64,000 nucleotides of DNA, taken from Siphonodentalium dalli (Eukaryota > Mollusca > Scaphopoda > Gadilida > Siphonodentaliidae). Under the pieces are notes generated by a model. The model saw nothing but the letters and a program-made list of their open reading frames with translations, was not told the DNA's origin and did no database searches. A program made the translations under genes and the position numbers. Positions 18,545 through 62,900 of the stretch are shown piece by piece (the stretch's first letter is position 1; each line of letters begins with the position of its first letter). The stretch is taken from the NCBI GenBank assembly GCA_032622095.1, contig CP136063.1, forward strand, positions 66,601,897 to 66,665,896, written 5' to 3'.

Positions 18545-18590
18545 TATGTGGATGGAGTTATCATTAGACCTCACATCCTTATATGGGCTA

Positions 18591-25902: not shown

Positions 25903-26162
25903 AACAGAAGGGCCCTGTGCCAATGCATGCTCTTATATATGCGAGTCGACCATAGGTCGCCTCGCATATATAAGAGAATGCATTGGCCTAAAAAAAAATC
26001 TTTTTTTAACACTTTTTACCATTTTTTCTTACATTCTTTAACAATTTTATAATTTTTAATGTGTTAAGCCAATGCATTCTCTTATATATGCGAGGCGACC
26101 TATGGTCAACTCGCATATATAAGAGAATGCATTGGCACAGGGCCCTTCTGTTGGGTAAAGGG
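25903..26162. mobile_element. TTAA type I hairpin element, left end degraded
   Basis: Two 69-bp hairpins in opposite orientation (about 25916-25984 and 26071-26139) around a T-rich spacer. The right end reads CCCTTCTGTTGGGTAAAGGG followed by TTAA (26163-26166). The left end keeps the inverted AACAGAAGGGCCCTG but lacks the outer TTACCC segment. The GGG-TTAA end is piggyBac-like. No transposase is present. Confidence 0.75.
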
Positions 26163-26426
26163 TTAACTGACACAACATGATGATTATACATTATACAATT
26201 CATACTTACCAAAGCTAACGACATGAGCAGCAAACTTTCGGTAGTTCCACTTGTAACGGTGCTATTAACCCCTTACCCAACAAACCGGCCAAAACCGGCA
26301 AAATAAAGCTTCAACAGCCTAAAATATCTTCGGTCTGTCTCAATAGAACCATACAAATATTGATATAATTGGAACCGGCTCCTTGACCACATTGTGATAG
26401 TTACAGTTATGCCCTGTGCCAATGCA

Positions 26427-29249
26427 TCTATATCTATATTTGCGAATGTCTGTCTGTCTGTCTGTCTGTGTTCTATAGAAATTCACAGGGGACCATCTAG
26501 ATGATGCCAAAGGGGTCTACTAGGAGTAGCTTTTTACGAGAAAGATAATGGTCGGGGTCAGAATTTTCTAAAGTGACGCCGTTGTTGTCAGGGGCAGAAA
26601 AGGGGGAGGGGCAGAAAAATAAATTGTCGCCGATTGCCACCAAACTTATATATAATCATCCCCATAATATGAGGAATCTAATGGCGTGGTTTAAATATGG
26701 CAAAAGTCGCGCCGTTCACGTCAAGGGTGCCCGGAAGGGGGGGGGGGTGCAGATTTTTTTTCTGTCGCCGATTGCCACGAAACTTACATATAATCATCCC
26801 CATGATATGAAGAATCCATCGGTGTGGTTTAAATATGTCAAAAGTGGCGTCGTTTGAGTCAGGGATGAACGGAAGGGGAGAGGGGCACCAAAATTGATAA
26901 AACTAATTTTAGCGCCGATTTCCACCAAATTGATATATATTCTTCTTCACGATACAAGGAATCTAATTGTGCGATTTAACAACGCCAAATGTTGTTTTTG
27001 GATGTGAGATTGGGAGGGGGTGGGCACTAAATTTGATAATAAGTCGCCGATTGCCACCACACTTATACAAAATCATCCCCATGGTATGAGGAGTCTAATG
27101 GTGTGGCTGTTATCTGTCAAATGTGGCCTCATTCGAGTCAGGGTTGCATTGAAAGGGACAGGGGTACCAAAATTGATGCACAATTTTTTTAGCGCCAATT
27201 TCCACCAAGTTGATACACGTTCTTATCCATGATACGAGGAATCTAATCGTGATTTAAAGACGCCATAGTGGTGCTGTTTGAGTGAGAGATGGAGAGGGGA
27301 GGGATTGGCACCAAATTTGATAAAAAAAATTGTTTACTCGCCGATTATCACCAAACTTATAAACAATCATCTCCATGATATCAGGAGTGTAATCGTGTGG
27401 TTTAAGGATGTCACAAGTGGGGCCATTCGAGTCAGTGGTGTATAGAGATGAGAGGGACACAAAAAGTTATATCTATATGTTTAGTGCCGATTTCCACCAG
27501 ATTGATACATATTCTTCTCCGTGATACGAGGAATCTTATCGTGTGGTTTAGATACACCAAATTGGTGCCCTATGGGTGAGAGATGTGGGGACCTTAAGTT
27601 TGATACGAATTTGTATACTCGCCAATTTACACCAATTTCATATATATGCATCTCTAATCTCTAATGAGTCTTAGTGTGTGCAGCTTGAGTCCGAAATAGG
27701 GACGGGAGGGTCACCAAAACTGATACAAAATATTTTTAGTACCAATTACCATCAAATTCAGACACGTTCTTCTCAAATGATACAAGAAATAAAATCGTGC
27801 TGTCTGTCTGTCTTTTTGTCTGTCTGTGTGCGTTCTATATATAACTTCACGCGGTAAAATCGAGATGGCACCAAGGCGTTCTAAGAGGGGTAACTTTTTA
27901 CAAGGAAGATAATGGTGCGGGTTAAAATTTTCTAAAATGATGCTGTTGGTGGGAGGGGAAATTTAAAAATTATGGTGAAATAGTTTTGTCGCTGATTTCC
28001 ACCAAACGAATACATAATCACCTTCGCAATATGGCGTTGTTTGAGTCAGCGTTGCATCAACAATTGATTTAATAAACCAAATTCCACCAAATTCATACCC
28101 GTTTTTCTCTAATGATATACCATGAATTAAATCACATTTGGTGTCATTTGTGTCACGGGTGGCGAGCGGATATGCACTATCATTGATAAGATTGCTATTC
28201 GCCGATATCCACATATAAGTTATATACAGTCACCAGGCCATCTCCATATAGTTGGGCGTTCACATTTCACAATCCCGACATATGGTGACCCACATAAGTC
28301 ACTTGAACAATTATATCTTCTTAACAGTCATATTTATATGGGAATGGCAATCAAGGCATTCACACAATGAGCTAGCAAAAAGAGATAACTAGAAGAAGCA
28401 TTAAACGTATATTTATCATTCTATTGAAGAGATACATATATTCGTGCAAACTGAGAGACCTCGAACCGTCAGAGGATTGCATATATATAATAACAACATT
28501 TAGTCTGTTCCATTCAATACAGTTTCCACAAAAAGTTACAATTTGTCAAGAGATATGGAAGGCCTGTTCAAAAATAGTGCTCACAGTGTGCAGTCAAATA
28601 TAGTTTCTTCTGATATACAAGAAAATGCAGTTAGTAGCACAAGACTTTTCAGGATCCTACCAATACGGACATCTGACAAGGGTTTTATAACAGACTCATC
28701 GACTGACATAAACAACTCAAAATCTCGCTCTGTGCCTGGCACATGTAGCTGATATATGTGCGCAGCAACATTTCGTTTAAACTAAGAATATTTAGCCAAT
28801 ATATAGCACCATGAACAGAGGAGCACCTGGAAATTTCTTTGAAACATCTGTATCTTCATGGAGATATGATAGCCATGTGTCCTCGAGATCTTAGTCCAAC
28901 CCACTAGATTGATTGATACATCTCAATATGTAAAACCCAATTATCATCTTTTATCGAACTAATGTGTTTATGATGTTCATGTATCATATTATAACGTCTA
29001 ATGTATACGCAGTTGTAATTAAATAAATACTTCATTATTGGTGGAACGGATTAATCGCGATAAACAGAATGACAATTGATAAGGTGAGCCACTACTTATA
29101 TTCCATGACTGTAATAATAATGTTTTGTGATGCTATTTGAATATACAATTTATGAGAAAACGTATAACACTTTAAGCAAGAGCATTCTCTATTCCCAACA
29201 AATATCCACGGCATACATTAACCTGGGCAACGCCGGGTAACCCTGCTAG
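26427..29249 (+). mobile_element. non-autonomous Helitron, 2.82 kb
   Basis: Inserted within a hairpin of the TTAA element: the host reads AATGCA before and TTCTCTTATAT after, which join exactly to the uninterrupted hairpin AATGCATTCTCTT. The element begins TC (26427) and ends CTAG (29249) with an imperfect GC hairpin (CCTGG ... CCGGG, 29222-29236) upstream, and it sits between A and T. All three are Helitron rules. The body is a diverged tandem array. A second copy of the 5'-terminal TGTCTGTCTGTC/TTCTATA segment lies at about 27798. No Rep/helicase frame is present, and a 69-residue frame at 28543-28752 is unrecognised. Confidence 0.9.
26573..28230 (+). repeat. diverged tandem array inside the Helitron
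   Basis: Units of roughly 140-150 bp alternate the phrases GCCGATT.CCACCAAA, CATGATA.GAGGAATCTAAT and GTGTGGTTTAA. Several units carry G-rich tracts such as GGAAGGGGGGGG. The frames across it are repeat shadows. Confidence 0.7.
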
Positions 29250-29484
29250 TTCTCTTATATATGCGAGTCGACCATAGGTCGCCTCGCATATATAAGAGAA
29301 TGCATTGGCCTAAAAAAAAAACTTTTTTTAACACTTTTTACCATTTTTTCTTACATTCTTCAACAATTTTATAATTTTTAATGTGTTAAGCCAATGCATT
29401 CTCTTATATATGCGAGGCGACCTATGGTCGACTCGCATATATAAGAGAATGCATTGGCACAGTGCCCTTCTGTTGGGTAAAGTG
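29250..29484. repeat. right part of the interrupted TTAA element
   Basis: Contains most of the left hairpin, the T-rich spacer, the complete right hairpin (about 29393-29461) and the right terminal repeat. It is continuous with 26269-26426 once the Helitron is removed. Confidence 0.8.
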
Positions 29485-29649
29485 TTAATACGTTGACATC
29501 GCTACTATTGAAACTACATCGTTTTTGTTTCGCATATATTTAGCTGTGGTACAGCAAGCTCTGTCAGCGAACCAGTCACTGCTGGTTACAAGCAACTAAT
29601 TATTAACCACACATGTGTATACTGTAGGCCAAATTATAGAATTCCATGG

Positions 29650-33230: not shown

Positions 33231-33232
33231 AA

Positions 33233-35180: not shown

Positions 35181-35189
35181 TATTTCGGT

Positions 35190-36941: not shown

Positions 36942-37066
36942 TTATTGAATCTGTTTGCGACGTTCTCGTCGCACCTTAAGCAGGGAATCAAGACCCTCCT
37001 CAAAAACTCCCTCAGATGTCAAAGGAAGATTTTCCATGTCTCCAGTCAAGTTAGACTCCCACCATT
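36942..37066 (-). CDS. candidate terminal coding exon, unidentified protein
   Basis: On the minus strand a possible acceptor (GACACAG, complement of 37067-37073) opens a frame starting TGG TGG GAG. It reads acidic and then basic to a TAA at 36944-36942: residues include EWWESNLTG, MENLPLTSEG, EEGLDSLLK and a basic tail VRRERRKQIQ. Composition and the absence of repeat matches make it look like a genuine protein C-terminus. The frame is closed just upstream by TGA, so it needs an intron there, and the minisatellite at 37154-38507 would lie in that intron. I found no convincing upstream exon and no domain. The plus-strand frames over the same bases are probably shadows. It may be a pseudo-exon or chance. 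Confidence 0.35.
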
Positions 37067-37153
37067 CTGTGTCGCTCAATGCACACATATGCAGAAACAC
37101 AACCAAACGAAATTCTCATCCTCTGCTTCCAAGCAAGTTAATAACTTCGCCAA

Positions 37154-38507
37154 CGCTTGCTGTGAATATAGTTGTGTAATGACTCCCATGTGAGCCGCTT
37201 GCTGTGAATATAGTTGTGTAATGACTCCCATGTGAGCCGCTTGCTGTGAATATAGTTGTGTAATGACTCCCATGTGAGCCGCTTGCTGTGAATATAGTTG
37301 TGTAATGACTCCCATGTGAGCCGCTTGCTGTGAATATAGTTGTGTAATGACTCCCATGTGAGCCGCTTGCTGTGAATATAGTTGTGTAATGCCTCCCATG
37401 TGAGCCGCTTGCTGTGAATATAGTTGTGTAATGACTCCCATGTGAGCCGCTTGCTGTGAATATAGTTGTGTAATGACTCCCATGTGAGCCGCTTGCTGTG
37501 AATATAGTTGTGTAATGACTCCCATGTGAGCCGCTTGCTGTGAATATAGTTGTGTAATGACTCCCATGTGAGCCGCTTGCTGTGAATATAGTTGTGTAAT
37601 GACTCCCATGTGAGCCGCTTGCTGTGAATATAGTTGTGTAATGACTCCCATGTGAGCCGCTTGCTGTGAATATAGTTGTGTAATGACTCCCATGTGAGCC
37701 GCTTGCTGTGAATATAGTTGTGTAATGACTCCCATGTGAGCCGCTTGCTGTGAATATAGTTGTGTAATGACTCCCATGTGAGCCGCTTGCTGTGAATATA
37801 GTTGTGTAATGACTCCCATGTGAGCCGCTTGCTGTGAATATAGTTGTGTAATGCCTCCCATGTGAGCCGCTTGCTGTGAATATAGTTGTGTAATGACTCC
37901 CATGTGAGCCGCTTGCTGTGAATATAGTTGTGTAATGACTCCCATGTGAGCCGCTTGCTGTGAATATAGTTGTGTAATGACTCCCATGTGAGCCGCTTGC
38001 TGTGAATATAGTTGTGTAATGACTCCCATGTGAGCCGCTTGCTGTGAATATAGTTGTGTAATGACTCCCATGTGAGCCGCTTGCTGTGAATATAGTTGTG
38101 TAATGACTCCCATGTGAGCCGCTTGCTGTGAATATAGTTGTGTAATGACTCCCATGTGAGCCGCTTGCTGTGAATATAGTTGTGTAATGACTCCCATGTG
38201 AGCCGCTTGCTGTGAATATAGTTGTGTAATGACTCCCATGTGAGCCGCTTGCTGTGAATATAGTTGTGTAATGACTCCCATGTGAGCCGCTTGCTGTGAA
38301 TATAGTTGTGTAATGACTCCCATGTGAGCCGCTTGCTGTGAATATAGTTGTGTAATGACTCCCATGTGAGCCGCTTGCTGTGAATAATAGTTGTGTAATG
38401 ACTCCCATGTGAGCCGCTTGCTGTGAATATAGTTGTGTAATGACTCCCATGTGAGCCGCTTGCTGTGAATATAGTTGTGTAATGACTCCCATGTGAGCCG
38501 CTTGCTG
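37154..38507. repeat. 42-bp minisatellite, about 32 units
   Basis: Near-identical head-to-tail units of 42 bp (start phrase GCTGTGAATATAGTTGTGTA, end phrase CATGTGAGCCGCTT). I saw only three variants: an A-to-C change at 37392 and at 37854 (exactly 11 units apart) and a one-base insertion near 38386 that makes one 43-bp unit. Because 42 is divisible by three and the minus-strand unit contains no stop in any phase, all three minus frames stay open, producing artefactual frames of 531 and 472 residues built from 14-residue repeats. Confidence 0.97.
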
Positions 38508-38649
38508 CTCTCTGAATGCTGATTGTTCAACCATCTTTCATGGCTGAGAATGCAGCAATGTAGATACATTGGAATCGGAGCATTCCTTCGATGCACCTTT
38601 AGTTCCGTATTTCTTGGAAATGGCCTCTCCGACCTAAGGATCGGGGAGA

Positions 38650-38754
38650 GCTTTCCGATGAATGGCAACAAGCCAAAATTTTCGACTAAATCCTGAAAAA
38701 TTACTCATAATTATGTTGTGGTTATGGAGTCGATTACTTAGGGCATTACTGTAG
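38650..38754 (-). mobile_element. half of a palindromic CAGTAATG MITE (right arm)
   Basis: Runs from GAGAGCTTTCCGATGAATGG, the palindrome centre, to GGGCATTACTG-TA. It is more diverged than the full copies. The start of the spurious 531-residue frame lies in this element, more evidence that the frame is not a gene. Confidence 0.7.
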
Positions 38755-38938
38755 GCTACACTTTTCTGACTAGGGGAATCCATTAAGTATAGAAAGGGTT
38801 AACACAGCTAGGCTACATGGCAGTTAATTTCCTCAGGTATACTTAAAGGGGCACTTAATTTTTGAGTCGCCGATTATTTTGTTTATAGTGACTTGATATA
38901 CGGTTTTAATAACAATCTATGCCATAAAATATGATTAA

Positions 38939-39019
38939 CCCTTTGAGTGCCAGGGGCCGATCTCATCGGCCCTAAACCTACAAAATAAGTCTAAAGAATA
39001 TAAGAATAAATTATTAAAA

Positions 39020-39052
<33 letters not shown>

Positions 39053-39172
39053 GTTAGGCCAATGCATTCTCTTATATATGCGAGGCGACCTATGGTCGAC
39101 TCGCATATATAAGAGAATGCATTGGCACAGGGTATATGGGTTGATACAAAAATCGACCTGGCACTCAAAGGC
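38939..39172. mobile_element. TTAA type II hairpin element, 234 bp, with empty-site proof
   Basis: TTAA (38935-38938), then CCCTTTGAGTGCCAGG ... CCTGGCACTCAAAGG, then TTAA (39173-39176). The right side carries one 69-bp hairpin (39058-39126) next to a long A-run. The duplicate copy reads ATGATTAAAATAC with a single TTAA at 42307-42310, and related sites near 41329 and 44458 are also empty. Insertion therefore followed the tandem duplication and duplicated TTAA. Confidence 0.92.
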
Positions 39173-39589
39173 TTAAAATACTATAATTCATCACTATTTT
39201 AAACATTTGTGTCTCAGTAGATGCCCACAGAGAAATAGAAAACTGCTGAAACATAGAATGACTTCCCCTCCCCCCTTTGGTACCCAGAATGCAACAGAAT
39301 TCAAACTTTTTCAATGGAAGGGGAAGAACTCTATCTTTAATAATAGAGTTATTCCCCCCTGCGTTGAAACTCAACAAAAATAACATGTCCACAGTTTATT
39401 ACACCGGATAAGTTGATAATACAATATTTTGGAGCTTCCTCTTTCAAATGGTCTATAATATGGCATATGTAATCAGGGGGTTCGAAATCAAGTGGGTCTT
39501 TAATGTTCTTATTTAACATTTCAGCCCTCCTAACACTCAAGAAATTGTGTACACTCACTTACAGCTACCATAAAGAAGAAATCATCAAA

Positions 39590-39651
39590 ATGGCTGAGAA
39601 TAACTACCCTACCACACAGGCTCCAAGTGACGAGACTCCATCTGCTGGCGG
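39590..39651 (+). CDS. candidate first coding exon, duplicate 1 of the TRIM-like gene
   Basis: Identical coding content to 42723-42784: ATG at 39590, 20 codons (MAENNYPTTQ, then APSDETPSAG) and two further bases, then a GTATGC donor. Being farther from the RING exon (9.1-kb intron) it is more likely a by-product of the 3.1-kb tandem duplication or an alternative first exon. A possible upstream acceptor (CACTTACAG) precedes it, so part of the 5' UTR may be spliced. Confidence 0.45.
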
Positions 39652-39879
39652 GTATGCTTGCTTTTAACTGTTTCTATTGCACTAATTTATAAAGGTATAC
39701 ATTGGAATGGTCCATTATTATGCCTCCGACCCAAGTAGGAGGTTCAGGGCATATAGCCAAGGGCTCCGTCCGTCCACCCATCCATCCGTCTGTCTGTATA
39801 GTCTGTGCACATTTGAGCCCTATGTGGTCAGGGTCAAACTACCACCTGATGCCCGTTATTCTGTACAATTTAGGAGTTA

Positions 39880-40092
39880 CAGTTATGCCCTAAGTAATCA
39901 ACCTCTTAACCAAAGCAGAATTATGGGTAACTTTTCAGGATTTAGTCGGAAATATGGCTTGTTGCCATTCATCGGAAAGCTCTCGGTGAGAGCTTTCCGA
40001 TGAATGGCAACAAGCCATATTTCCGACTAAATCCAGAAAAGTTACCCATAATTCTGCTTTGGTTAAGAGGTCGATTACTTAGGGCATTACTG
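39880..40092. mobile_element. 213-bp palindromic CAGTAATG MITE, long form
   Basis: TA-flanked palindrome (39878-39879, 40093-40094) with a left end mutated to CAGTTATGCCC. The centre reads AAAGCTCTCGGTGAGAGCTTT. The equivalent copy in duplicate 2 is at 43013-43225. Confidence 0.85.
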
Positions 40093-40500
40093 TAATTGGT
40101 AGTCTTAATTGGTCAAACCTGTTAAAATCAACAAAGGAAAGACCACTTAAAGACCAAATGAATGTGTGTCCGTCCGTCCATCCGAACATATCACCTTGTA
40201 ACTCAGGTGTTAATTATTGGATTTTGTTGTATCGATAGCACATGTTGGGGAAAGGATGCCAACATACTACAGGTTTCATCCATTATTTTTTCACCAGATT
40301 TGCCCTTCTTTGACTTGGAAATTTGTGAATTTTGTGTCTGAAACAGTGTTGAACGATTAGGAGTTTTCAGAAAGGAGAAGTTGACTACAAGTCGATTAGT
40401 CGAACCCCTTCTCTCATAGACATGATTGATGATGGAATATCTTTGCAAACATTATTTTGAAAACTGTTATTTGTAAGTTTCTGGATAATTTATTGGGTAC

Positions 40501-40902
40501 TTATAATAATATAATAATAATGGTACTTATAAAGTGCCTATCCCTGCAAGGGCCCTAAGCTCTTCACATTATTATCCCATCTGTTGAATCATGCTGAGTC
40601 TTATGCATGCAACCATGCATTTTTATAGGTGCTTCACACGAGCGGCTTACACATACCCAACAACCAGTTCTCTGTCTCTCGTCTAGGTACGACGAAGTGA
40701 GCACAGTACGAGTGACCTTGCCCAAGGGTCACAATCTGGCTCGAGATTTGAAACAGTGTGTGTCTATATATACATGTAGCACAGTCACCGTTTAATTCGG
40801 CCAAGCCACTGTTATGGAGTCGATAGTCCACCGGCGGGGCACGAACTCATGCCAGTGCATATTTACAAGTCCGACACTCTAACATTGGGCTAGCACTACC
40901 AC
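40501..40902 (-). mobile_element. tRNA-derived SINE, copy 1
   Basis: Read on the minus strand, the head (from about 40902) has an A-box-like TAGCCCAATGT and a B-box-like GTTCGTGCCCC at tRNA-like spacing, the internal RNA polymerase III promoter of a SINE. The body includes a GGGTCACTCGTACTGTG segment and, near the 3' end, an AAGTGCC/CCCTGCAAGGG segment. The tail is a TTA/TTATTA simple repeat (plus-strand 40501-40520). A 62-residue plus-strand frame across it is a shadow. No intact tRNA gene is implied. Confidence 0.7.
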
Positions 40903-40906
40903 TTAA

Positions 40907-41151
40907 CCCTTTGAGTGCCAGGGGCCGATATTATCGGCCCTAAACATACACAATAAGTCTGTTAAAGAATATAATAGAATATATTAAAATTGTAAAAAAC
41001 TGTAAAAAAAAAAAAAAAAAAAAAAAAATTGTTAAGCCAATGCATTCTCTTATATATGCGAGGCGACCTATGGTCGACTCGCATATATAAGAGAATGCAA
41101 TGGCACAGGGTATATGGGTTGATACAAAAATCGGACCTGGCACTCAAAGGG
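40907..41151. mobile_element. TTAA type II hairpin element
   Basis: TTAA at 40903-40906 and 41152-41155, ends CCCTTTGAGTGCCAGG / CCTGGCACTCAAAGGG, hairpin at 41036-41104 with one arm mutation. It is present at the same place in duplicate 2, so it predates the tandem duplication. Confidence 0.88.
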
Positions 41152-41872
41152 TTAACAAATATGTCGTTATAATGCCAACTTAATGGTATTTGTCACAAGA
41201 AATCCAGTCAAAAATAAAAATAGTGAATGCATTTAAAGGCCCACTTAATTTTCGAGTCTCCGATTATTTTTGTTTTATAGTGACTTGATATACGGTTTTA
41301 ATAACAATATATGCCATAAAATATGATTAAAATACTATAATTCATCACTATTTGAAACATCTGTGTCTCAGAAGATGCCCAGAGAGAAATAGAACATTGC
41401 TGAAGATTCCCCACCCCCCTCTGACCCCCCAGAATGCAACAGAATTAAAACTTTTTCAATGAAAGGGGAAGAACTCTATTTTTAATATGTAGAGTTATTC
41501 CCCTTGCATTGAAAATGATACTGATTTTTACTTCAATGTTGATGACAAAACTCAACAAGAACATCATGTTCACAGTTTATGTGGGCCTTTAATCTACATG
41601 TATGTGAATAAAGAGTAGAGAAGGTAAACATCCAATCAAACAAAATTCGGAACTGCTGAAAACCGGTGCTAGAAGTTTTGTTTGAAAAAACGTTCCGTGT
41701 CTATGCCTTATGTAACAACTACTTGGTAAAGATACATAGAACATGAGAAGGATCAGTGTATCGAGCTATATTATAAAGTACTATTTATATATATTATAAA
41801 TACTAAGACAGTTAGGCTTCCCTTGCTAAACATTAATCTTATATTACAAAGTTATTATAGAATGTCGTGTGC

Positions 41873-41997
41873 AGTATGTGTTTTTCTTGTCCAGGTTGTG
41901 GTGAAAAGTCATATTGGACGAGACACGCAGCGCCCAGTCCAATATGACTTTTCACCACAACCTGGACGAGTAGAAGAAAAACACATACTGTAGATAA
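41873..41997. mobile_element. hairpin MITE with about 48-bp arms
   Basis: CAGTATGTGTTTTTCTTGTC opens the left arm. The arms pair through CAGGTTGTGGTGAAAAGTC and CATATTGGAC around a 17-bp loop (GAGACACGCAGCGCCCA). A related, shorter inverted pair (GTCATATTGAAC / GTCCAATATGAC) lies at 47608-47669. The copy in duplicate 2 is at about 45008-45131. Confidence 0.75.
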
Positions 41998-42017
41998 CAT
42001 TGTATAATGACATTTTT

Positions 42018-42141
42018 AGCTCAACTTTACTTTGTAAAGTTTGAGCTATTGCCATGGCTTTGTCGTCTGTCGTCCGTGTGTGCGTGTGTGTGTGCGTAAG
42101 GCGTCAACAATAGAGGCTACAGGTCGTACCTTTGATCGGAT
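42018..42141 (+). repeat. truncated start of the AGCTCAACTT array element
   Basis: Same opening sequence as 45159 and 62901, cut at GATCGGATC where copy 2 of the tandem duplication begins. The duplication junction therefore lies in this repeat, and an 8-bp filler (GGATTTG-like) separates it from the next copy. Confidence 0.75.
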
Positions 42142-42722
42142 CGGATTTGATCCATTAAGTATAGAAAGGGTTAACACAGCTAGACTACATGGCAGTTAAT
42201 TTCCTCAGGTATACTTAAAGGGGCACTTAATTTTTGAGTCGCCGATTATTTTGTTTATAGTGACTTGATATACGGTTTTAATAACAATCTATGCCATAAA
42301 ATATGATTAAAATACTATAATTCATCACTATTTTAAACATTTGTGTCTCAGAAGATGCCCACAGAGAAATAGAAAACTGCTGAAATCATAGAATGACTTC
42401 CCCCCCCTTTGGTACCCAGAATGCAACAGAATTCAAACTTTTTCAATGGAAGGGGAAGAACTCTATCTTTAATAATAGAGTTATTCCCCCCTGCGTTGAA
42501 ACTCAACAAAAATAACATGTCCACAGTTTATTACACCGGATAAGTTGATAATACAATATTTTGGAGCTTCCTCTTTCAATTGGTCTATAATATGGCATAT
42601 GTAATCAGGGGGTTCGAAAATCAAGTGGGTCTTTAATGTTCTTATTTAACAACTCAGCCCTCCTAACACTCAAGAAATTGTGTACACTCACTTACAGCTA
42701 CCATAAAGAAGAAATCATCAAA

Positions 42723-42784
42723 ATGGCTGAGAATAACTACCCTACCACACAGGCTCCAAGTGACGAGACTCCATCTGCTGGCGG
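42723..42784 (+). CDS. candidate first coding exon of the TRIM-like gene
   Basis: ATG at 42723 begins 20 codons (MAENNYPTTQ, then APSDETPSAG) plus two bases (GG), ended by a GTATGC donor at 42785. The RING exon at 48727 starts with a single base completing a codon, so the splice phases fit exactly (GG plus C gives Gly). The short acidic, Thr/Ser/Pro-rich leader has no domain. The upstream context ATCAAAATGG is a reasonable initiation site. The assignment rests on phase, orientation and the lack of a start codon in the RING exon. No transcript is available. The proposed intron is 5.9 kb and contains only repeats. Confidence 0.5.
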
Positions 42785-43012
42785 GTATGCTTGCTTTTAA
42801 CTGTTTCTATTCCACTAATTTATAAAGGTATACATTGGAATGGTCCATTATTATGCCTCCGACCCAAGTAGGAGGTTCAGGGCATATAGCCAAGGGCTCC
42901 GTCCGTCCACCCATCCATCCGTCTGTCTGTATAGTCTGCGCACATTTGAGCCCTATGTGGTCAGGGTCAAACTACCACCTGATGCCCGTTATTCTGTACA
43001 ATTTAGGAGTTA

Positions 43013-43225
43013 CAGTAATGCCCTAAGTAATCGACCTCTTAACCAAAGCAGAATTATGGGTAACTTTTCAGGATTTAGTCGGAAATATGGCTTGTTGCCA
43101 TTCATCGGAAAGCTCTAGGGGAGAGCTTTCCGATGAATGGCAACAAGCCATATTTCCGACTAAATCCAGAAAAGTTACCCATAATTCTGCTTTGGTTAAG
43201 AGGTCGATTGCTTAGGGCATTACTG
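43013..43225. mobile_element. 213-bp palindromic CAGTAATG MITE, long form
   Basis: TA-flanked (43011-43012, 43226-43227) counterpart of 39880-40092. Here the left terminus is intact CAGTAATGCCC. The centre reads AAGCTCTAGGGGAGAGCTT. Confidence 0.85.
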
Positions 43226-43634
43226 TAATTGGTAGTCTTAATTGGTCAAACCTATTAAAATCAACAAAGGAAAGACCACTTAAAGACCAAATGAATGTGT
43301 GTCCGTCCGTCCATCCGAACATATCACCTTGTAACTCAGGTGTTAATTATTGGATTTTGTTGTATCGATAGCACATGTTGGGGAAAGGATGCCAACATAC
43401 TACAGGTTTCATCCATTATTTTTTTTACCAGATTTGCCCTTCTTTGACTTGGAAATTTGTGAATTTTGTGTCTGAAACAGTGTTGAACGATTAGGAGTTT
43501 TCAGAAAGGAGAAGTTGACTACAAGTCGATTAGTCGAACCCCTTCTCTCATAGACATGATTGATAATGGAATATCTTTGCAAACAATATTTTGAAAACTG
43601 TTATTTGTAAGTTTCTGGATAATTTATTGGGTAC

Positions 43635-44035
43635 TTATAATAATATAATAATAATGGTACTTATAAAGTGCCTATCCCCGCAAGGGCCCTAAGCTCTTCA
43701 CATTATTATCCCATCTGTTGAATCATGCCGAGTCTTCTGCATGCATCCGTGCATTTTATAGGTGCTTCACACGAGGGGCTTACACATACCAAACAACCAG
43801 TTCTCTATTTCTCGTCTAGGTACGACGAAGTGAGCACAGTACAAGTGACCTTGCCCAAGGGTCACAATCTGGCTCGAGATTTGAAACAGTGTGTGTCTAT
43901 ATATACATGTAGCACAGTCACCGTTTAATTCGGCCAAGCCACTGTTATGGAGTCGATAGTCCACCGGCGGGGCACGAACTCATGCCAGTGCATATTTACA
44001 AGTCCGACACTCTAACATTGGGCTAGCACTACCAC
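43635..44035 (-). mobile_element. tRNA-derived SINE, copy 2
   Basis: Duplicate of 40501-40902 with few substitutions. Both A- and B-box-like sequences are retained. It directly abuts the TTAA element at 44040. Confidence 0.7.
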
Positions 44036-44039
44036 TTAA

Positions 44040-44285
44040 CCCTTTGAGTGCCAGGGGCCGATATTATCGGCCCTAAACCTACACAATAAGTCTGTTAAAG
44101 AATATAATAGAATATATTAAAATTGTAAAAAACTGTAAAAAAAAAAAATAAAAAAAAAAAAATTGTTAAGCCAATGCATTCTCTTATATATGCGAGGCGA
44201 CCTATGGTCGACTCGCATATATAAGAGAATGCAATGGCACAGGGTATATGGGTTGATACAAAAATCGGACCTGGCACTCAAAGGG
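44040..44285. mobile_element. TTAA type II hairpin element
   Basis: TTAA at 44036-44039 and 44286-44289; duplicate of 40907-41151 with a T interrupting the A-run. The 69-bp hairpin is at about 44170-44238. Confidence 0.88.
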
Positions 44286-45158
44286 TTAACAAATATGTCG
44301 TTATAATGCCAACTTAATGGTATTTGTCACAAGAAATCCAGTCAAAAATAAAAATAGTGAATGCATTTAAAGGCCCACTTAATTTTCGAGTCTCCGATTA
44401 TTTTTGTTTTATAGTGACTTGATATACGGTTTTAATAACAATATATGCCATAAAATATGATTAAAATACTATAATTCATCACTATTTGAAACATCTGTGT
44501 CTCAGAAGATGCCCAGAGAGAAATAGAACATTGCTGAAGATTCCCCACCCCCCTCTGACCCCCCAGAATGCAACAGAATTAAAACTTTTTCAATGAAAGG
44601 GGAAGAACTCTATTTTTAATATATAGAGTTATTCCCCTTGCATTGAAAATGATACTGATTTTTACTTCAATGTTGATGACAAAACTCAACAAGAACAACA
44701 TGTTCACAGTTTATGTGGGCCTTTAATCTACATGTATGTGAATAAAGAGTAGAGAAGGTAAACATCCAATCAAACAAAATTCGGAACTGCTGAAAACCGG
44801 TGACCGGTGCTAGAAGTTTTGTTTGAAAAAACGTTCCGTGTCTATGCCTTATGTAACAACTACTTGGTAAAGATACATAGAACATGAGAAGGATCAGTGT
44901 ATCGAGCTATATTATAAAGTACTATTTATATATATTATAAATACTAAGACAGTTAGGCTTCCCTTGCTAAACTTTAATCTTATATTACAAAGTTATTATA
45001 GAATGTCGTGTGCAGTATGTGTTTTTCTTGTCCAGGTTGTGGTGAAAAGTCATATTGGACGAGACACGCAGCGCCCAGTCCAATATGACTTTTCACCACA
45101 ACCTGGACGAGTAGAAGAAAAACACATACTGTAGATAACATTGTATAATGACATTTTT

Positions 45159-47393
45159 AGCTCAACTTTACTTTGTAAAGTTTGAGCTATTGCCATGGCT
45201 TTGTCGTCTGTCATCCGTGTGTGCGTGTGTGTGTGCGTAAGGCGTCAACAATAGAGGCTACAGGTCGTACCTTTGATCGGATCTTTATGAAATTTGTCAT
45301 AGCTGTTGACATCAACATTTGTACTGGAATGATTCATTTTGGGGTCATTCGGAAAAAAAACATGGCCGCCAGCGGCCATCTTAGATTTCAAAATTCAATC
45401 CATTAGCACGGGCTACAGGCCGTACTGTTCGTCTGATCGTCATGAAATTTAATATTGACATGTAGATGGGAACGAGTAATCTTGGGGTCATCCGGCCAAA
45501 AAACATGGCCGCCAGCTGCCATCTTGGATTTTACTCTTTGTATGACTAAATCCTTTAGCACGGGCTACAGGTCGTACCTTTAGTCTGATAATCATGAAAT
45601 TTGTCATGGCTGTTGAAATTGGAATGTAGATGGGAACGAGTCATTTTGGGGTCATTGGGACAAAAAACATGGCCGCCAGTGGCCATCTTTGTTTTCAAAA
45701 TTCAATCCATTAGCACGGGCCACAGGTCGCACTGTTCGTCTGATCATCATGAAATTTGTCATGGATGTTAATATTGACATGTAGATGGGAACGAGTCATT
45801 TTGGGGTCATTCGGCCGAAAAACATGGCCGCCAGCAGCCATCTTGGATTTTACTCTTTGTATGACTAAATCCTTTAGCATGGGCTACAGGTTGTACCTTT
45901 AGTCTGATCATCATAAAATTTGTCATGGATGTTAACAATGACATGTAGATTGGAACGAGTCATTTTGGGGTCATTCGGCCAAAAAACATGGCCGCCAGCA
46001 GCCGTCTTGGATTTTACTCTTTGCATGACTAAATACTTTAGCATGGGCTACAGGTCCTTCTTTTAGTCTGATCATCATAAAATTTGTCATGGATGTTAAT
46101 AATCACATGTAGATGGGAACGAGTCATTTTGGGGTCATTTGGCCAAAAAACATGGCCGCCAGCAGCCATCTTGGATTTTACTCTTTGTATGACTAAATAC
46201 TTTAGCACGGGCTACAGGTCATACCTTTAGTCTGATCATCATGGCTGTTGATATTGGAATGTAGATGGGAACGAGTCATTTTGGGGTCATTCGGACAAAA
46301 AACATGGCCGCTAGCGGCCATCTTGGATTTCAAAATTTAATCCATTAGCACGGGCCACAGGTCATACTGTTTGTCTGATCATCATGAAATTTGTCATGGA
46401 TGATAATATTGACATGTAGATGGGAACGAGTAATTTTGGGGTCATTCGGCCAAAAAACATGGCCACCAGCAGCCATCTTGGATTTTACTCTTTGTATGAC
46501 TAAATTCTTTAGCACGGGCTACAGGTCGTACATTTAGTCTGATCATCATAACATTTGTCATGGCTGTTGAAATTGGAATGTAGATGGGAACGAGTCATTT
46601 TGGGGTCATTCGGACAAAAAACATGGCCGCCAGCAGCCATCTTGGATTTCCAAATTTAATCCATTAGCACGGGCCACAGGTCGTACTGTTCGTCTGATCA
46701 TCATGAAATTTGTCATGGATGTTAATATTGACATGTAGATGGGAACGAGTAATTTTGGGGTCATTTGGCGAAAAACATGGCCGCCAGCAGCCATCTTGGA
46801 TTTTACTCTTTGTATGACTAAATTCTTTAGCACGGGCTACAGGTCGTACCTTTAGTCTGATCATCATAAAAATTTTCATGAATGTTAATAATGACATGTA
46901 GATGGGAACGAGTCATTTTGGGGTCATTGGGCCAAAAAACATGGCCGCCAGCAGCCAACTTGGATTTTACTCTTTGTATGACTAAATCCTTTACCACGGG
47001 CTACAGGTCGTACCTTTAGTCTGATCATCATAAAATTTTTCATGGCTGTTGAAATTGGAATGTAAATGGGAACAAGTCATTTTGGGGTCATTCGGACAAA
47101 AAACATGGCCGCCAGTAGCCATCTTGGATTTCAAAATTTAATCCATTAGCACGGGCCACAGGTCGTACCTTGAGTCTGATCGTCATAAAATTTGTCATTG
47201 ATGTTAACGATGACATGTAAATGGGAACGACTCATTTTGGGGTCATTTGGCCGAAAACATGGCCGCCAGCAGCCATCTTGGATTTTACTTTTCTCTTCAT
47301 GTCTATAAACTAGTATTAGACATTCAACTTTCCACATTCCTAATCGCTCCATTGACTGTAATATATTAAATTATTCCCTGTCCAAGTTGAGCT
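45159..47393 (+). mobile_element. array element with AGCTCAACTT/AAGTTGAGCT ends
   Basis: Opens AGCTCAACTTTACTTTGTAA, followed by a TTTGAGCTATTGCCATGGC segment and a GTGTGT tract, then about 13 diverged units of roughly 150-165 bp. Each unit has ATCATCATGAAATTTGTCAT, GACATGTAGATGGGAACGAG, TTTTGGGGTCATT and ACATGGCCGCCAGCAGCCAT phrases. It closes CCAAGTTGAGCT, and the related end at 60647 shares the following CAGTGTCATTGACAC, so the true terminus may be slightly further out. No protein frame survives. Confidence 0.8.
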
Positions 47394-47399
47394 ACAGTG

Positions 47400-48115
47400 T
47401 CATTGACACTTTCATTATTATCCAATTGTGTGTTTATATATCCAAATTTATGGAATAAAACTTTTGTGGTTATTTTGAACAGTAAACAGGGAAGTGAAAA
47501 AAAACTCAATGCGGGAAGTGAAACGGGTCTGCTAAATCCACAGTATTGCACGCGCATCACAATTTCACCGATTCATTAGGCAGAGTTACTTTGTGAGTCC
47601 TGATAAAAAAGTCATATTGAACATTCGGGTGTCCAAGATGATTTTCGGGAGTCCAATATGACTTTTTCCTGGATTATCACATGACGGCTTTTGCCCAATC
47701 AGAAATACTGTTAGTTAAGGGATGGATAATAATACAATATACAGCTAATTAAATAAACAACATGCCAGCTAGCCCAGCAGCTCACCAGAACATAGCTGTC
47801 AGTGCTTTTTGAGATAAACTGTGGTCACCGTGCATAATCAGTTGGGATCTCGATCTTCATGTGTTACACCTGTGGTAACACCCGGCTTAAGTGCACAAAT
47901 AATTTTAAAACTGAACTTTGCATCCCATACTTTCTGAATAAATTCTCCAATCAGTTAGAAATTAAAAATATACATTTGAATCTGTTGGAATGGTCTATAA
48001 TTTATCTGGTGGGCTGTTCAGGAAATATTAGCAGACGACAGATAACACTGGTGTAGAAGGATTCCTGTTCATTGGTGGGAATTGTTAGATAATAAGTTCA
48101 ACAAAAGGCTGTTTG
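47400..48115. other. intergenic (within proposed intron), no recognised exon
   Basis: Contains an inverted AAAGTCATATTGAAC / GTCCAATATGACTTTTT pair at 47606-47671 related to the hairpin MITE at 41873. Otherwise unmatched. A 65-residue frame at 47859-48056 lacks splice sites or domains. Confidence 0.4.
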
Positions 48116-48119
48116 TTAA

Positions 48120-48511
48120 CCCTTTACCCAACAAAACGGCCAAAACCGGCCAAATAAAGCTTCAACAGCCTAAAATATCTTCGGTCTGTCTCAATAGAAC
48201 CATACAAATATGGATATCATTGGAACCGGCTCCTTGACCACATTGTGATAGTTACAGTTATTCCCTGTGCCAATGCATTCTCTTATATATGCGAGTCGAC
48301 CATAGGTCGCCTCGCATATATAAGAGAATGCATTGGCCTAAAAAAAATCTTTTTTTAACACTTTTTACCATTTTTTCTTACATTCTTTAACAATTTTATA
48401 ATTTTAAATGTGTTAAGCCAATGCATTCTCTTATATATGCGAGGCGACCTATGGTCGACTCGCATATATAAGAGAATGCATTGGCACAGGGCCCTTCTGT
48501 TGGGTAAAGGG
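48120..48511. mobile_element. TTAA type I hairpin element, intact 392 bp
   Basis: TTAA (48116-48119), then CCCTTTACCCAACA ... TGTTGGGTAAAGGG, then TTAT (one mutated base). Two 69-bp hairpins in opposite orientation (about 48270-48338 and 48418-48486) flank a T-rich spacer. The roughly 150 bp before the first hairpin (AAACGGCCAAAACCGGCC segment) has no right-hand counterpart. It serves as the uninterrupted reference for 26269-29484. Confidence 0.88.
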
Positions 48512-48522
48512 TTATCCCCGAG

Positions 48523-48627
48523 AGCTTTCTGATGAATGGCAACAAGCCATATTTCCGACTAAATCCTGAAAAGTTACCCATAATTCTGCTGTGGTTAAAG
48601 GAGTCGATTAATTATGGCATTACTGTA
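48523..48627 (-). mobile_element. half of a palindromic CAGTAATG MITE (right arm)
   Basis: Runs from GAGAGCTTTCTGATGAATGG to ATGGCATTACTG-TA. It is the half starting at the palindrome centre. It lies about 100 bp upstream of the RING exon. Confidence 0.7.
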
Positions 48628-48726
48628 TATGAACATTTCCTAAGGGAACTATTCGTCAATGAGTATTTAGCAAAGAAAGGGTACATTTAGCAGCTTTGGC
48701 TCAGATTTTATCTTTTAATATTTCAG

Positions 48727-49868
48727 CATCCAGCTGATTGAGTATGAAGTATACCAGAGCCGACTTGAAAATGGCCAATGCAGCTTGTGTCAAAAATACT
48801 TCAATGACACAAGTAATCTTCCCAAGAGACTAGCGTGTTTTCACGTTTTCTGCCGCAAGTGCTTAGTGGCATGTATGCAAAGTGGGAATAACGCAGTTAT
48901 ATGTGCTATCAGACTGTGTGAGAAGCTTACGGACACCGACTCTGTGGATAGTTTACCAACAGATAACTTCAAATTATCTCACGGCCAGATGAAAATGGTT
49001 CAATGTAGCCCGGGCGATGTCAAATGTGCTGGATGTACAAATGGAATAGCTGAATTTGCATGCTCCGACTGTCCTAATTTTCTCTGTAATGACTGTTTGA
49101 ACAGGCACAAAGCTGATGTATCAGGTAGAATGCATTCCACCCATTGCTTAACCTCTCTCAGTCCTGATGATCTGAAGAGCTTGTTTTACCCGCAGCTTAA
49201 ATGTTCCAAGCCAAAGCATGACCACTATCCAAAAAATATGTTCTGCACAGATGATGGCTGTAAAATGCTAATGTGTTTACAGTGCGCTTCCACTGATCAC
49301 TTGAAGAAAGGGCATGATGTTCAGGAAGATACAGAAGCTTTCTCGCCTTACAAAACATCAATAGATGACAAGCATGCTAAACTAAAAGACGAGAACACAG
49401 AAATCCAGCATGCTTTGAGTGTTGTTGAGGCTGAGGGCGTAGCTATAGATGATAGACAGAAAGAAGTTGAACGAGAAATTAGCGACATATTCACATCATA
49501 TCAAGAACTTCTCTCAAAGCAGAAGAATAAAATGATAGAAGACGTTAGATTGTTGTCTGCTATTAAGAAGAGTACCCTTGATCAGCAAATGAGAGAACTC
49601 GCTGAGCGGAACATGAACGTAACAACTCATCTTGAATATGCTTCATCAGTTATGAATTGTCCAGACCATTCCTTGGCACTCAGTGTATCTCAAGAACTGA
49701 TACAGAAAATGAACGATTTGCTCAAAATGTATGTCATGAAAGATCCCAAATCCAAAGCCGAGTTCAATTTTGAGACAACAAACAATCACACTAATTTCAT
49801 GTTCTTCATAGAAAACCTCGGGAATTTAAGAAGCATAGACACAGACTATGAAAGACAACAGATAGCAG
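48727..49868 (+). CDS. TRIM-like RING/B-box/coiled-coil protein, main exon
   Basis: TRIM-family proteins are typically E3 ubiquitin ligases whose RING recruits an E2, with B-boxes and a coiled coil for assembly. The exon is bounded by acceptor ATATTTCAG and donor CAG/GTGAGA and stays open for 380 codons. In the proposed protein the RING is C39-C42-C58-H60-C63-C66-C80-C85; the last pair is spaced by four residues where two is usual, so zinc site 2 may be altered. B-box 1 spans about 121-160 (CAGC, CSDC, CNDC, H157, H160). B-box 2 spans about 180-217 (C180, H185 or H187, C194, C199, C204, C207, H212, H217). A charged helical coiled-coil region follows to about 330. There is no in-frame ATG before the RING, so a 5' exon is required. 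Residues 330-401 have no recognised fold. Confidence 0.85.
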
Positions 49869-51600
49869 GTGAGATTACCTTACTCATATTTAATCCTTTC
49901 TATACGGAATGGATTCTCCCACTCAGTTATAAAAGACTACATGGAACACTCTATTATTCATTTAGAGGGATGTACATGTAATAAAAGCAGATGACAGACT
50001 GAAAACAGATAGTTCAAACACAGAAAAAGTCCTTTTAATTGGAGGGAAATGTTCAGATCCATAATAAGTTCAACAAACCTAAAAAATATAAAAAAGTTCA
50101 GCATATAGTTTTTTATCTTAAAATGTACTGGTAGGAGTCAAGCGTCAAGTTTTAAAATATCAAGAGTTCGTGATATGCATCTTTAAAATCAGCTTAATCC
50201 ATACAATAGACAGCATTATCCATGTCACACAAAAGCTCTCAGTGCTTTCTGATGAATGGCAACAAGCCATATTTCCTGTGGTTAAGGAGTCGATTATTCA
50301 GGGCATTACTGAATATTATGTGAAGTTGGTACGATAAAATGATAAACAATGTTCAAAAATATGACAAGACTGTAAAGTTGATATTCCCTGGAAAACAGAA
50401 AGAGAAAATATAAACTATACGTATAATTATTTCTACATTTGTTCATCCTCCCTTCAAATTAACTATTATATTGGCAGAGTTTGATTTATATAGTTATGAA
50501 ATGGCGAGAAATTAACTTTATATGAGCAAAATTTTATACAGTAAGAATTTGGGGTGGGGGGGGGGAGATACCCAGGCCTGAGTATCTTCCCCCCACCCAG
50601 TGGCTACATATGACAAAAATTAAACGTATGATTTTATTGCTTAATTTGCTTTATATAGTCATGAAATGGCGAGAAATTAACTTTATATGAGCAAAATTTG
50701 ATTAGAGTAAGAATTTGGGGTGGGGGGGGGGAGATACCCAGGCCTGAGTATCTCCCCCCCCCCCCCCTCCCACCCAGCACCTACAAATGACAAAAATTAA
50801 ATGTATGATTTTATTGCTTAATTTGCTTTATATAGTCATGAAATGGCTAGAAATTAACTTTATATGAGCAAAATTTGGTTAGAGTAAGAATTTGGGGTGG
50901 GGGGGGGGGAGATACCCAGGCCTGAGTATCTTCCCCCCTCCCACCCAGCACCTACATATGACAAAAATTAAACGTATGATTTTATTGCTTAATTTGCTTT
51001 ATATAGTTATGAAATGGCGAGATAAACTTATATATATATTTTTTAATTATGCTGCTGGGTGAGGGGGGGGGGGGGGGGGGGGGGGGGGATACTCAGGCCT
51101 CTCCCCCACACCAAATTCCTACTCTATCAACTTTTTGTCATAAAAAGTTAATTTCTGACCATATCATGACTATTTAAAGCAATAAAATCATATGTTTAAT
51201 TTTTGTCATATGTAGGTGCTGGGTGGGGGGGGAAGATACTCAGGCCTGGGTATTTCCCCCCCCCCCCACCCCAAATTCTTACTCTATCAAATTTTGCTCA
51301 TATAAAGTTAATTTCTCGCCATTTCATGACTATATAAAGCAAATTAAACGATAGAATCATAAGGTAATATTTTGACATATTTATGCTATTATTGGGTTAA
51401 GTTAAACTTCAAAATAACCAAAAAAAATATATATATTTAATAGTTTTCTCGGCATTTCTTACCATAATAATATAAAATAAGTGAGGGAAAAAAAATGTAC
51501 GAGTGGGGGGAAGATACCCAGGGTGGGGGGGAGATACCCCGGGGTATGTTCCCCCCGGGGGGAGATATCGTGTTACACCGGTACCCCAAATCTCGCATCC
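49869..51600. repeat. intron with G-run hairpin array, direct then inverted
   Basis: Bases 50236-50310 are a decayed half palindromic MITE. From about 50480, three direct units of 164-178 bp each contain GAAATTAACTTTATATGAGC, a run of 9-12 G, then GAGATACCCAGGCCTGAGTATC and a C-run that folds back on the G-run. From about 51040 the same unit recurs in inverted orientation. G-runs reach about 27 bases near 51063. Confidence 0.8.
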
Positions 51601-51682: not shown

Positions 51683-54480
51683 TCAGATTATCGAATACAT
51701 GGCCTTAGTGGCTTTGTCAGCAAGGCCTTTTTTTGCTTCAGAGTATGAACCAGACTTGGTATGTGTAATTCCAAGATAGTTAAATTTTTTTACAACATCA
51801 ATTGGATTGCCATTGTAGAAAAAAATTCTGTTTTTTGGGAGGCTTCGTTTGGATATAAGCATGATTTTAGTCTTTGTTGCATTAACTGTCAGTTTCCACG
51901 TTTTGCAGTAATTATGAAAAATATTCAATGTGTTTTGTAATTTTGCGGGGGTTTCAGCCATGAGAACGGTGTCATCTGCATATAGAACTATGAACAGTTT
52001 CATATTCAGATGATTTTTAGCGTCATTGGATAGTTTCGGTAAACCGATAGCTCCCGAGGACTCTAAGTAGTCTTTTAGGTCATTTAGATATAATGTAAAA
52101 AGTATAGGTGAGAGATTCACTCCTTGACGGACACCAGATAAGCACGGGAAGTAGTTTGATTGTATTTTCCCCAATTGCACTCTGGACTTAATATTTAGGT
52201 ACATACTGCGTATAACTTTGTAAATTTTGCCTTTTATATTATTTAGCAATAGTTTGTGCCATAACCCTTGTCTCCATACTTTGTCAAATGCTTTCTCAAA
52301 ATCTATGAATGCACAGTATAGTAGTTTGGGTCAGCATATAGAGAACAAATATATTATCAACAGTGGAATATTTTTTTCTAAAGCCTGATTGATTTTCATT
52401 TATAATTTCTTGTTCTTCTAGGTATGTATTAATTCTGTTTGTCAAGATTTTTGTAAATAATTTTCCAAGACAACTTAGTAAGGTAATTGGCCTATCATTT
52501 TTGGGATCGCTAGTGTCGCCTTTGTTTTTAAATAAGGGTATAATAGTGCCTATTCCCCATGAGTCAGGAACACAACCAGAGTCTAGGACTAGATTAAAAA
52601 GTTTACAGTATATATCTAATAGCGCACCAGTTGAGGCTTTTATATATTCGTTCAAAATTCCATCAGTTCCGGGGGATTTGTTGTTACTGAGGTTTGAGAC
52701 TGCAGTGGTTATTTCCTCGCATGTAATTGGTCTATTTATGTGATCATTTCCTTCGTAATTTGTGTCCTTAATTTTTAAATTAGGGTTATCTTCATATGAT
52801 GTACATGTAGCATTCATTTCTCGAAAATGGTTCTCCAATTCACTTATTTTTAGCTTATTACATGTTACTCTGCTTTTCTTGTTCAGAGTACTCCAAAATA
52901 GTTTTGCATTACCTTTTTTAAAAGTTTATTCATTTCACGCGATACCTTTTCCCTGTGTACTTTCATCGCATTGTCCAATACGAGTTTATATTTTTTACAT
53001 TCCTCGCGCATTACATTTTTAGAGTAATCATTTTGTCTTAATTTATTATTTCTTTGTGATTTTCTGTATTCCTTTCTGGCCAGTTTACATGCCAAATTAA
53101 ACCAGGGCTTAATTACCACGTGTATTTATCTTTTTTTATTTAGTTTACATACTGGCCGGGACTCCGAAAGTTTTATTCGCCGAATTATTTATAGCTCCTG
53201 TTATTTTTGATACTATGCTATTTATTTCATTAATACTTACAACGTCAGTTTCATATTTATCAATAGTCTGTTTTATGACGTTAATTTCTTCGTCATCAAG
53301 ATTATATTTAAATTCACTTAATTTAGTTGTATCCCATCTGGGTCTAGCTGCCCCTGCATTAGATTCATGTGTACTTTTTGTCTGCACGTGCTGATTTATT
53401 ACTATTTCGGTTGTTAATGGCTTGTGAACATCTGAGAAAAGTTTATTTAGTTCCCCTACTACGGTGAAGTTATTTAATATAAATAGCATTGCAAGAGAAC
53501 TTATGGTATAATCAATTGTTGAGGCATCGCCACAAGTAAGTTTTCCTATCATGGAATCATTTCCCATATGGCCATTTATAATAATCATGTCATTTTGTTG
53601 ACAAAGGGAAATCAGTTTGCGACCATAGCTATTTACTGTTTTATCAGTGTTAAATCTTTGTTTGGTGAGGCCAGCTTTTTCAATTTCTGATTCGACATTT
53701 TGGTTATCATACAGGTAGCTGTCAAAATCTGCATGTTTGTTCTTGGTGAATTGGATGTAGTCTAAATTCTCTGCTGTACGTGCATTAAAATCCCCGGTAA
53801 TAAGTATAGTCTCACTTCTTTGTCTCATATTCAGGATTTCTGCAGTTACTTCATCAAACGCGGTGTCTGATGTGTATTTGGAACCATCTGGTGGGATGTA
53901 TAAAGCACCTATGATAATAGCATCTCTCTGATTATTCAGTTTTAGTTCTACCCAGTGAATAAAAGTACACTTTGTATTTATGATGCTTAATTGCTGATGA
54001 TTCTAATCTATCACTAATACCTCCAGATTTCACCCGCGAAAGTTTCATTCTGTTTTTCATATATAATTTGAATCCCTGTAAAGTTATTTGGTCGCAATTA
54101 TCTGTTTTGGTTTCTGACAGACAGAGAATGTCATGATTGTTGCAAAGTTCTTGGAATTCTGGGTAATTTACTCTTGCTCTCAGTCCACAAACATTGAGAG
54201 AAAGTATACTGAACTTTGTTTTGAGATTTAAGCTTTCTGATGCTTTGCCATTTTTATTAGGATTTAGAAGGTTGGGTGTGTCTGTAGCGACACTACACTT
54301 CACATTACGTGTATTCGGATATAGTAAAATTCGATCACGTATTTCATTATACTCTATGTCGTCTCTGTTTTTATTTGCTACTTTAAGACTGGAGTTGGCA
54401 TTTCCGTGTACTGGTAGTACGGAGTCATGTATATTCGAAGCATGAAAAATACGTGAAATTGACATATCTGTAAACCTCAC
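51683..54480 (-). pseudogene. decayed LINE: endonuclease and reverse transcriptase
   Basis: Antisense to the TRIM-like gene. In order along the minus strand: an APE-type endonuclease start (54480-53932, LSLNVCGL and LSETKTD motifs), its remainder (53828-53145, GDFNARTAE, TIDYTIS and SDVHKPL motifs), a linker with KPWFNLA (53119-52883), then reverse transcriptase (52838-52296, NKSPGTDGI, GTIIPLFKNK and NQSGFRK motifs; then DFEKAFDKVW just upstream of 52249 in another phase, and LSGVRQG, YADD at 51982-51971). Endonuclease and reverse transcriptase together place it among Jockey/CR1-type non-LTR elements; the clade is not resolved. It has at least three frame breaks and stops after the YADD region without the usual 3' part, so it is dead. 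Confidence 0.9.
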
Positions 54481-62762: not shown

Positions 62763-62900
62763 CTGAACAATTACAGTTACAGTTATGCCCTGTGCCAATG
62801 CATTCTCTTATATATGCGAGTCGACCATAGGTCGCCTCGCATATATAAGAGAATGCATTGGCCTAAAAAAAATCTTTTTTTAACACTTTTTACCATTTTT
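62763..62900. mobile_element. truncated TTAA type I element with one hairpin
   Basis: Matches 48245-48375, including the ACAGTTATGCCCTGTGCC lead-in and one 69-bp hairpin (about 62794-62862), and breaks off in the T-rich spacer where the AGCTCAACTT element starts (62901). Confidence 0.75.

Follow-up and report, generated by a model that had tools for sequence, protein, structure and literature searches.

A 69-bp hairpin core shared by two TTAA-flanked families of miniature elements with different ends in the scaphopod Siphonodentalium dalli

Introduction

Families of small transposable elements that share an internal region and differ in their ends have been described in corals. The CMITEs of Acropora are TTAA-flanked families of miniature inverted-repeat transposable elements (MITEs) with different terminal inverted repeats (TIRs), five of six of which start with CCCTTT, and they are reported to contain a 75-base core that varies less from family to family than the TIRs do; the authors term such a shared core unusual and leave its origin open (PMC2872659). 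In Galileo of Drosophila mojavensis, chimeric copies are described whose ends and centres derive from different subfamilies, with ectopic recombination and conversion invoked to account for them (PMC3573991), and in a further Galileo study template switching during the repair of excision gaps is given as one way in which defective copies arise (PMC4168063). Here we describe two families of TTAA-flanked elements, type I and type II, in a 64,000-nucleotide stretch (the window) of the scaphopod mollusc Siphonodentalium dalli (GenBank assembly GCA_032622095.1, contig CP136063.1, positions 66,601,897 to 66,665,896, forward strand). We confirm the proposal of an initial annotation, made from the letters of the stretch without database searches, that the two families have different ends and share a near-identical hairpin.

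Results

Type II elements have tips CCCTTTGAGTGCCAGG and TTAA on both sides, measure 242-254 bp with their target sites, and carry one hairpin each (Table 1). The sole complete type I element in the window measures 400 bp with its target sites (392 bp between a left-hand TTAA and a right-hand TTAT), has tips CCCTTTACCCAACA, and carries two hairpins, one the reverse complement of the other. The initial description of type I as about 392 bp with two inverted hairpins holds for this copy, but it is a description of a single complete copy, with TTAT as its right flank. TTAA lies next to type I ends at 26163, 26265, 29485 and 48116, and in the left-end fragment at 26265 the base-for-base match to type I stops within a hairpin stub, at about 26427. 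Of the three type II copies, those at 40903 and 44036 go back to a single insertion, which was duplicated together with the sequence around it. The ten hairpins and the stub can be traced to about seven insertion loci; type I accounts for five of these, if 25903 and 26265 are taken as separate, and type II for two.

We searched the window with the 14-mer hairpin arm GCCAATGCATTCTC, allowing up to two mismatches, and obtained 19 matches compared to 0.50 expected in shuffles. Nine hairpins span the full 69 bp, a tenth (start 29241) is cut so that 60 bases are intact, and an eleventh is the truncated stub, starting at 26418; the ten positions annotated initially all agree with ours within a few bases. 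Five copies (29390, 39058, 48269, 48417 and 62794) form 32 of 33 possible Watson-Crick pairs, four (25919, 26068, 41036 and 44170) form 31, and the cut hairpin forms 25. The off-centre G/A mismatch is indeed preserved, although "nearly all copies" understated the count, which is 10/10. Folded as RNA, the 48417 hairpin reaches -54.3 kcal/mol (z -13.7), and none of 200 shuffles folded as low. An Rfam search gave no match at gathering thresholds. Scans restricted to exact patterns found neither the 27-base stem in virus and prokaryote contig collections nor either of the two end types in viral contigs, as expected for an animal genome.

Table 1. Positions of the elements, hairpins and related features in the window
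Feature	Positions	Strand	Remarks
Type II element	38935..39176	+	242 bp with both TTAA; TIR CCCTTTGAGTGCCA, 1 mismatch
Type II element	40903..41155	+	older insertion
Type II element	44036..44289	+	40903 insertion copied by tandem duplication
Type I element	48116..48515	+	only complete copy; two inverted hairpins
Type I core and right end	25903..26166	+	right end with TTAA; left hairpin with inverted copy of right-hand flank, then diverges
Type I left-end fragment	26265..26445	+	BLAST 93.9% to 48116-48294 over 181 bp
Type I core and right end	29250..29488	+	right end with TTAA; left hairpin cut
Type I left hairpin and part of spacer	62775..62900	+	then another repeat
Hairpin	25919..25987	-	left, inverted
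Hairpin	26068..26136	+	
Hairpin	29250..29309	-	60/69 bases
Hairpin	29390..29458	+	
Hairpin	39058..39126	+	
Hairpin	41036..41104	+	
Hairpin	44170..44238	+	duplicate of 41036
Hairpin	48269..48337	-	left, inverted
Hairpin	48417..48485	+	
Hairpin	62794..62862	-	left, inverted
Palindrome, 19 bp	40922..40940	+	GGGCCGAT-ATT-ATCGGCCC, 16-34 bp inside type II left tip; also 38954-38972
Empty site	42305..42328	+	matches flanks of 38935; single TTAA

Type II elements are mobile units in their own right. A tandem duplication of about 3.1 kb relates 39173-42142 to 42307-45283 (98.5% over 2981 bp), and 38778-38938 is identical to 42150-42310 at 160 of 161 bases. The type II element at 38935 has no partner in the second duplicate, in which the site at 42305 is intact with a single TTAA; an older paralogue of this site (about 87-92% alike), found once per duplicate at 41325 and 44459, is also empty. 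The type II element at 40903, in turn, must predate the duplication, since it has a duplicate at 44036. In the simplest history, the element at 38935 inserted after the duplication; it is possible that it inserted before and was then precisely excised from the other copy, although this needs an extra step. Since the empty sites are clean, with a single TTAA, type II is not part of a longer element, which contradicts, for this type, the possibility raised in the initial annotation that both kinds of ends belong to one longer element.

The TTAA target and CCCTTT tips of both types fit piggyBac-type MITEs, whose TIRs are, by definition, 12-19 bp long with CC[C/T]T tips (PMC2872659). Both sets of tips follow this pattern and are inverted at the other end. 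Duplication of the TTAA target is seen for type II at 38935 with its empty sites, and is less sure for type I, given the TTAT to the right of its only full copy. The elements are small, and the only frame analysed that spans a type II element (38938-39180, minus strand) matched no Pfam family in a scan, at E 0.01, of 85 stop-to-stop frames of at least 80 codons in the window (frames starting at 37000-38600, in a 42-bp satellite, were left out). We considered Kolobok, which also uses a TTAA target but is described with 5'-RR / YY-3' termini (PMC9587614), and rejected it, as the termini here are 5'-CC / GG-3' (GC-3' at 39171-39172 of one copy).

We also scanned both 60-bp ends of the type II elements at 38935 and 40903, and both ends of the full type I element, for palindromes with arms of at least 6. 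The left 60 bp of both type II elements carry a 19-bp palindrome, and none was found in their right 60 bp or in either end of type I. As piggyBat is described as having palindromes in its left end only, where its transposase recognises them (PMC11707139), the type II palindrome is a candidate transposase-binding site, which we treat as a lead, type I having no counterpart.

When the two types are placed in matched orientation, they have in common an A-rich spacer, the hairpin and ACAGGG. When 48269 (type I) is compared with 39058 (type II), hairpin and ACAGGG prove identical (0/75 differences). Homology had been thought to be confined to the hairpin and two flanking phrases, but this is not so, as the spacer is also shared, diverged between the types and in reverse-complement orientation. 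We assessed the spacer with dinucleotide shuffles and, after removal of the A-run, against type I copy 48116 only. The type II spacer at 38935 then aligned to the type I spacer in reverse-complement orientation (35 matches, 8 mismatches, 2 gap columns). The score was 36, compared to a shuffle mean of 19.7; 1 of 2000 shuffles scored as high, as did 3 of 2000 for 40903, and the forward orientation scored at background. The differences between 48269 and 39058 are distributed unevenly between hairpin plus ACAGGG (0/75) and spacer (8/43; Fisher's test, p = 0.0002).

Outside ACAGGG the sequences diverge sharply into three flank classes: CCCTTCTGTT on the right of type I, [A/C]ATAACTGTAAC on its left, and TATATGGGTTGATAC in type II. 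Of the two flanking phrases reported as shared, the outer ACAGGG is general except at the cut copy 29241, where unrelated sequence takes its place, and at 29390, which has ACAGTG. The inner phrase TTAAGCCAATGC is only half general, since the inner flank is TTAA in five of the ten hairpins and TTAG in the other five.

One type I copy departs from this arrangement. At 25903 the left hairpin continues outward as ACAGGGCCCTTCTGTT, which is the right-hand flank, and the sequences diverge past CTGTT, whereas the left-hand flank is as usual at 48269, at 62794 and in the 26418 stub. This looks like a flank exchange between two hairpins, within type I, and the symmetrical form could be older than the asymmetrical one. 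The earlier idea of end-swapping around a preserved hairpin is reasonable, but only partly borne out, by one copy and within one type.

We examined the differences among hairpin copies by hand count. There are three independent substitutions (at 25919, at 26068, and at 41036, shared by its duplicate 44170). All of them disrupt a pair without a compensating change, so we rejected covariation as support for the stem. Moreover, 3 of 612 independent positions in hairpins of both types depart from the reference copy, compared to 3 of 277 in type I spacers (p = 0.38). With hairpin substitutions breaking pairs, and hairpin and spacer rates not significantly different, inserted copies seem, on small numbers, to decay like neutral sequence. 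We likewise rejected the preserved mismatch as a sign of function, since with only 3/612 differences shared descent is enough to explain its presence in every copy. The analysis yielded no evidence for the role in transposition, replication or small-RNA production that the initial annotation put forward as an inference.

Several other repeats and an open frame lie in the window. Palindromic elements of about 219 bp, 95.9% self-complementary by BLAST and with TA-CAGTAATGCCCTAAGTAATCGAC ends, are found at 39877-40095 and 43010-43228, with relatives at 18323-18735, 20493-20904, 33232-33340, 34972-35183, 38641-38753 and 48515-48628 as well as half copies; they look like mariner-type MITEs. The sequence on the outer side of the left hairpin in type I (26402, 48253, 62778) resembles the end of this TA-MITE, hinting at nesting, and the other side does not. 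An element starting AGCTCAACTTTACTTTGTAAAGTTTGAGCT is present at 42010, 45152-47290, 57299 and 62894-64000, some copies with arrays of about 164-bp repeats; it is reminiscent of oyster Helentron-type elements, whose repeats are given as about 160-180 bp (PMC7492417). A 42-bp tandem repeat at 37154-38507 (32 copies, 99% matches) is open in three minus-strand frames, and another tandem duplication, of about 2.2 kb, relates 17357-19533 to 19529-21709 (96.7% identical). A TRIM-like open frame of 420 codons (48719-49981) starts some 200 bp away from the type I element; it matches RING and B-box domains, in every case below Pfam curated cut-offs (best E 6e-5). A retrotransposon of the long interspersed nuclear element type, on the minus strand at 51683-54483, is split over several frames, with reverse transcriptase matches in 51686-52330 and 52299-52925, an endonuclease match just under the cut-off in 53148-54002, and no match in 53935-54483.

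Discussion

We think it probable that the two types are non-autonomous piggyBac-type MITEs in which recombination or template switching at the palindrome has provided a common core with different ends. The elements would be moved in trans by piggyBac-type transposases encoded elsewhere. The core (A-rich spacer, 69-bp hairpin and ACAGGG) would have become joined to different terminal sequences, resulting in type II with one hairpin and type I with a spacer between two inverted hairpins. Since the joins lie about six bases outside the base of the hairpin, ectopic recombination, gene conversion or template switching there is likely to have been involved, possibly during the repair of excision gaps. 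We infer that the hairpin itself has no special function.

Several observations weigh against this reading. Type I is represented by one complete copy, with TTAT on its right, and we found no empty site for it in the window; the loci number only seven, two of them type II; and the flank exchange occurs in a single copy. With the A-run retained, the spacers are less clearly similar, and in six pairs between 2 and 100 of 1000 shuffles scored as high. No transposase is among the 8 Pfam families matched by the 85 frames, although a badly decayed or shorter one could escape, and thus the piggyBac assignment rests on tips and target. Finally, the contrast between hairpin and spacer is also compatible with selective maintenance of the hairpin in source copies, which is possible.

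Such selection is central to an alternative that we consider unlikely, in which the hairpin is a functional cis module, for binding of a transposase or host factor or for synapsis, which selection preserved in source copies of the two families as their other sequence diverged. The identity of hairpin and ACAGGG between 48269 and 39058, against 8 mismatches in 43 aligned spacer positions, speaks for this; a role has been suggested for the conserved core of CMITEs (PMC2872659), the left-end palindrome of piggyBat is recognised by its transposase (PMC11707139), and internal MITE sequences are known from the literature to be able to promote or inhibit transposition. However, recent transfer explains the contrast between types equally well, every independent hairpin substitution breaks a pair without compensation, hairpins and type I spacers do not differ significantly in substitutions, and what most resembles the piggyBat sites is the short palindrome at the type II left tip rather than the 69-bp hairpin.

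It is very unlikely, in our judgement, that the core was once a separate mariner-like MITE with a TA target that became nested in TTAA elements and was carried along. On its outer side the left hairpin is flanked at 26402 and 62778 by TACAGTTATGCCC, which does agree at 12 of 13 bases with the terminal TACAGTAATGCCC found in the TA-flanked palindromic family in the window (11 of 13 at 48253), and the homology of the 62775 copy ends 3 bases beyond that TA. Nevertheless, the mirror end is missing, as the other hairpin runs into ACAGGGCCCTTCTGTT and type II runs into ACAGGGTATATGGG, and none of the ten copies consists of the core alone between two TA ends. We rejected a 16-base exact identity between the left flank and the TA-MITE at 39878, because its duplicate at 43011 and most relatives have another base, and the extra match is probably a later chance event. 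That types I and II are fragments of one longer element is hardly credible: they share the core and have similar CCCTTT tips, but type II is bounded by TTAA and TIRs at either end, and its empty sites contain a single TTAA.

The joining of a common core to different ends, which we favor, can be extended to a bolder proposal that we regard as quite unlikely, namely that the 69-bp hairpin is a portable recombination module, such that the palindrome promotes strand switching and the core repeatedly gains new ends, which would allow different piggyBac-type transposases to move it. If so, non-autonomous elements could outlive their transposase partner. If ends do exchange around a palindromic core, this would provide a testable route for MITEs to switch transposase partner and may help explain the conserved cores whose origin was left open in corals. 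The window adds a second pattern of the CMITE kind, with one possible intermediate (25903), and one of its insertions (38935) is ordered in time relative to a tandem duplication.

How, then, do these elements compare with known systems? Our search of the open-licence literature, which did not cover Repbase, did not find the five element strings. Like MITEs of the piggyBac superfamily, the elements have TTAA targets and CC[C/T]T tips, are small and have no coding capacity that we could find, and they differ from such MITEs in general in having a core shared across families. They resemble CMITEs in the TTAA target, the CCCTTT tips and the different TIRs around one conserved internal region, here in two families only, and in the presence of a site pair with and without the element (in CMITEs, as described, an allele pair). 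In contrast, CMITEs are about 100 bp and the 60-base stretch of their core that is published folds weakly (-11.0 kcal/mol), whereas the core here contains a 33-bp stem, single in type II and duplicated in inverted orientation in type I. With that 60-base stretch as query, we found no match in these elements (the best in the window, 11 bases at E 0.61, was to an unrelated minisatellite), and rejected kinship with the CMITE core at the level of sequence; since that core is absent from them, the elements are like a CMITE but are not one. They resemble Galileo in the mixed origin of ends and centre and the inverted recruitment of internal sequence, but Galileo is placed in the P superfamily and has long TIRs, and its chimeras with two different TIRs are reported to be flanked by unequal 7-bp sequences (PMC3573991). 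Thus, the finding combines the CMITE and Galileo patterns, and what differs is the strong hairpin core and its inverted duplication in type I.

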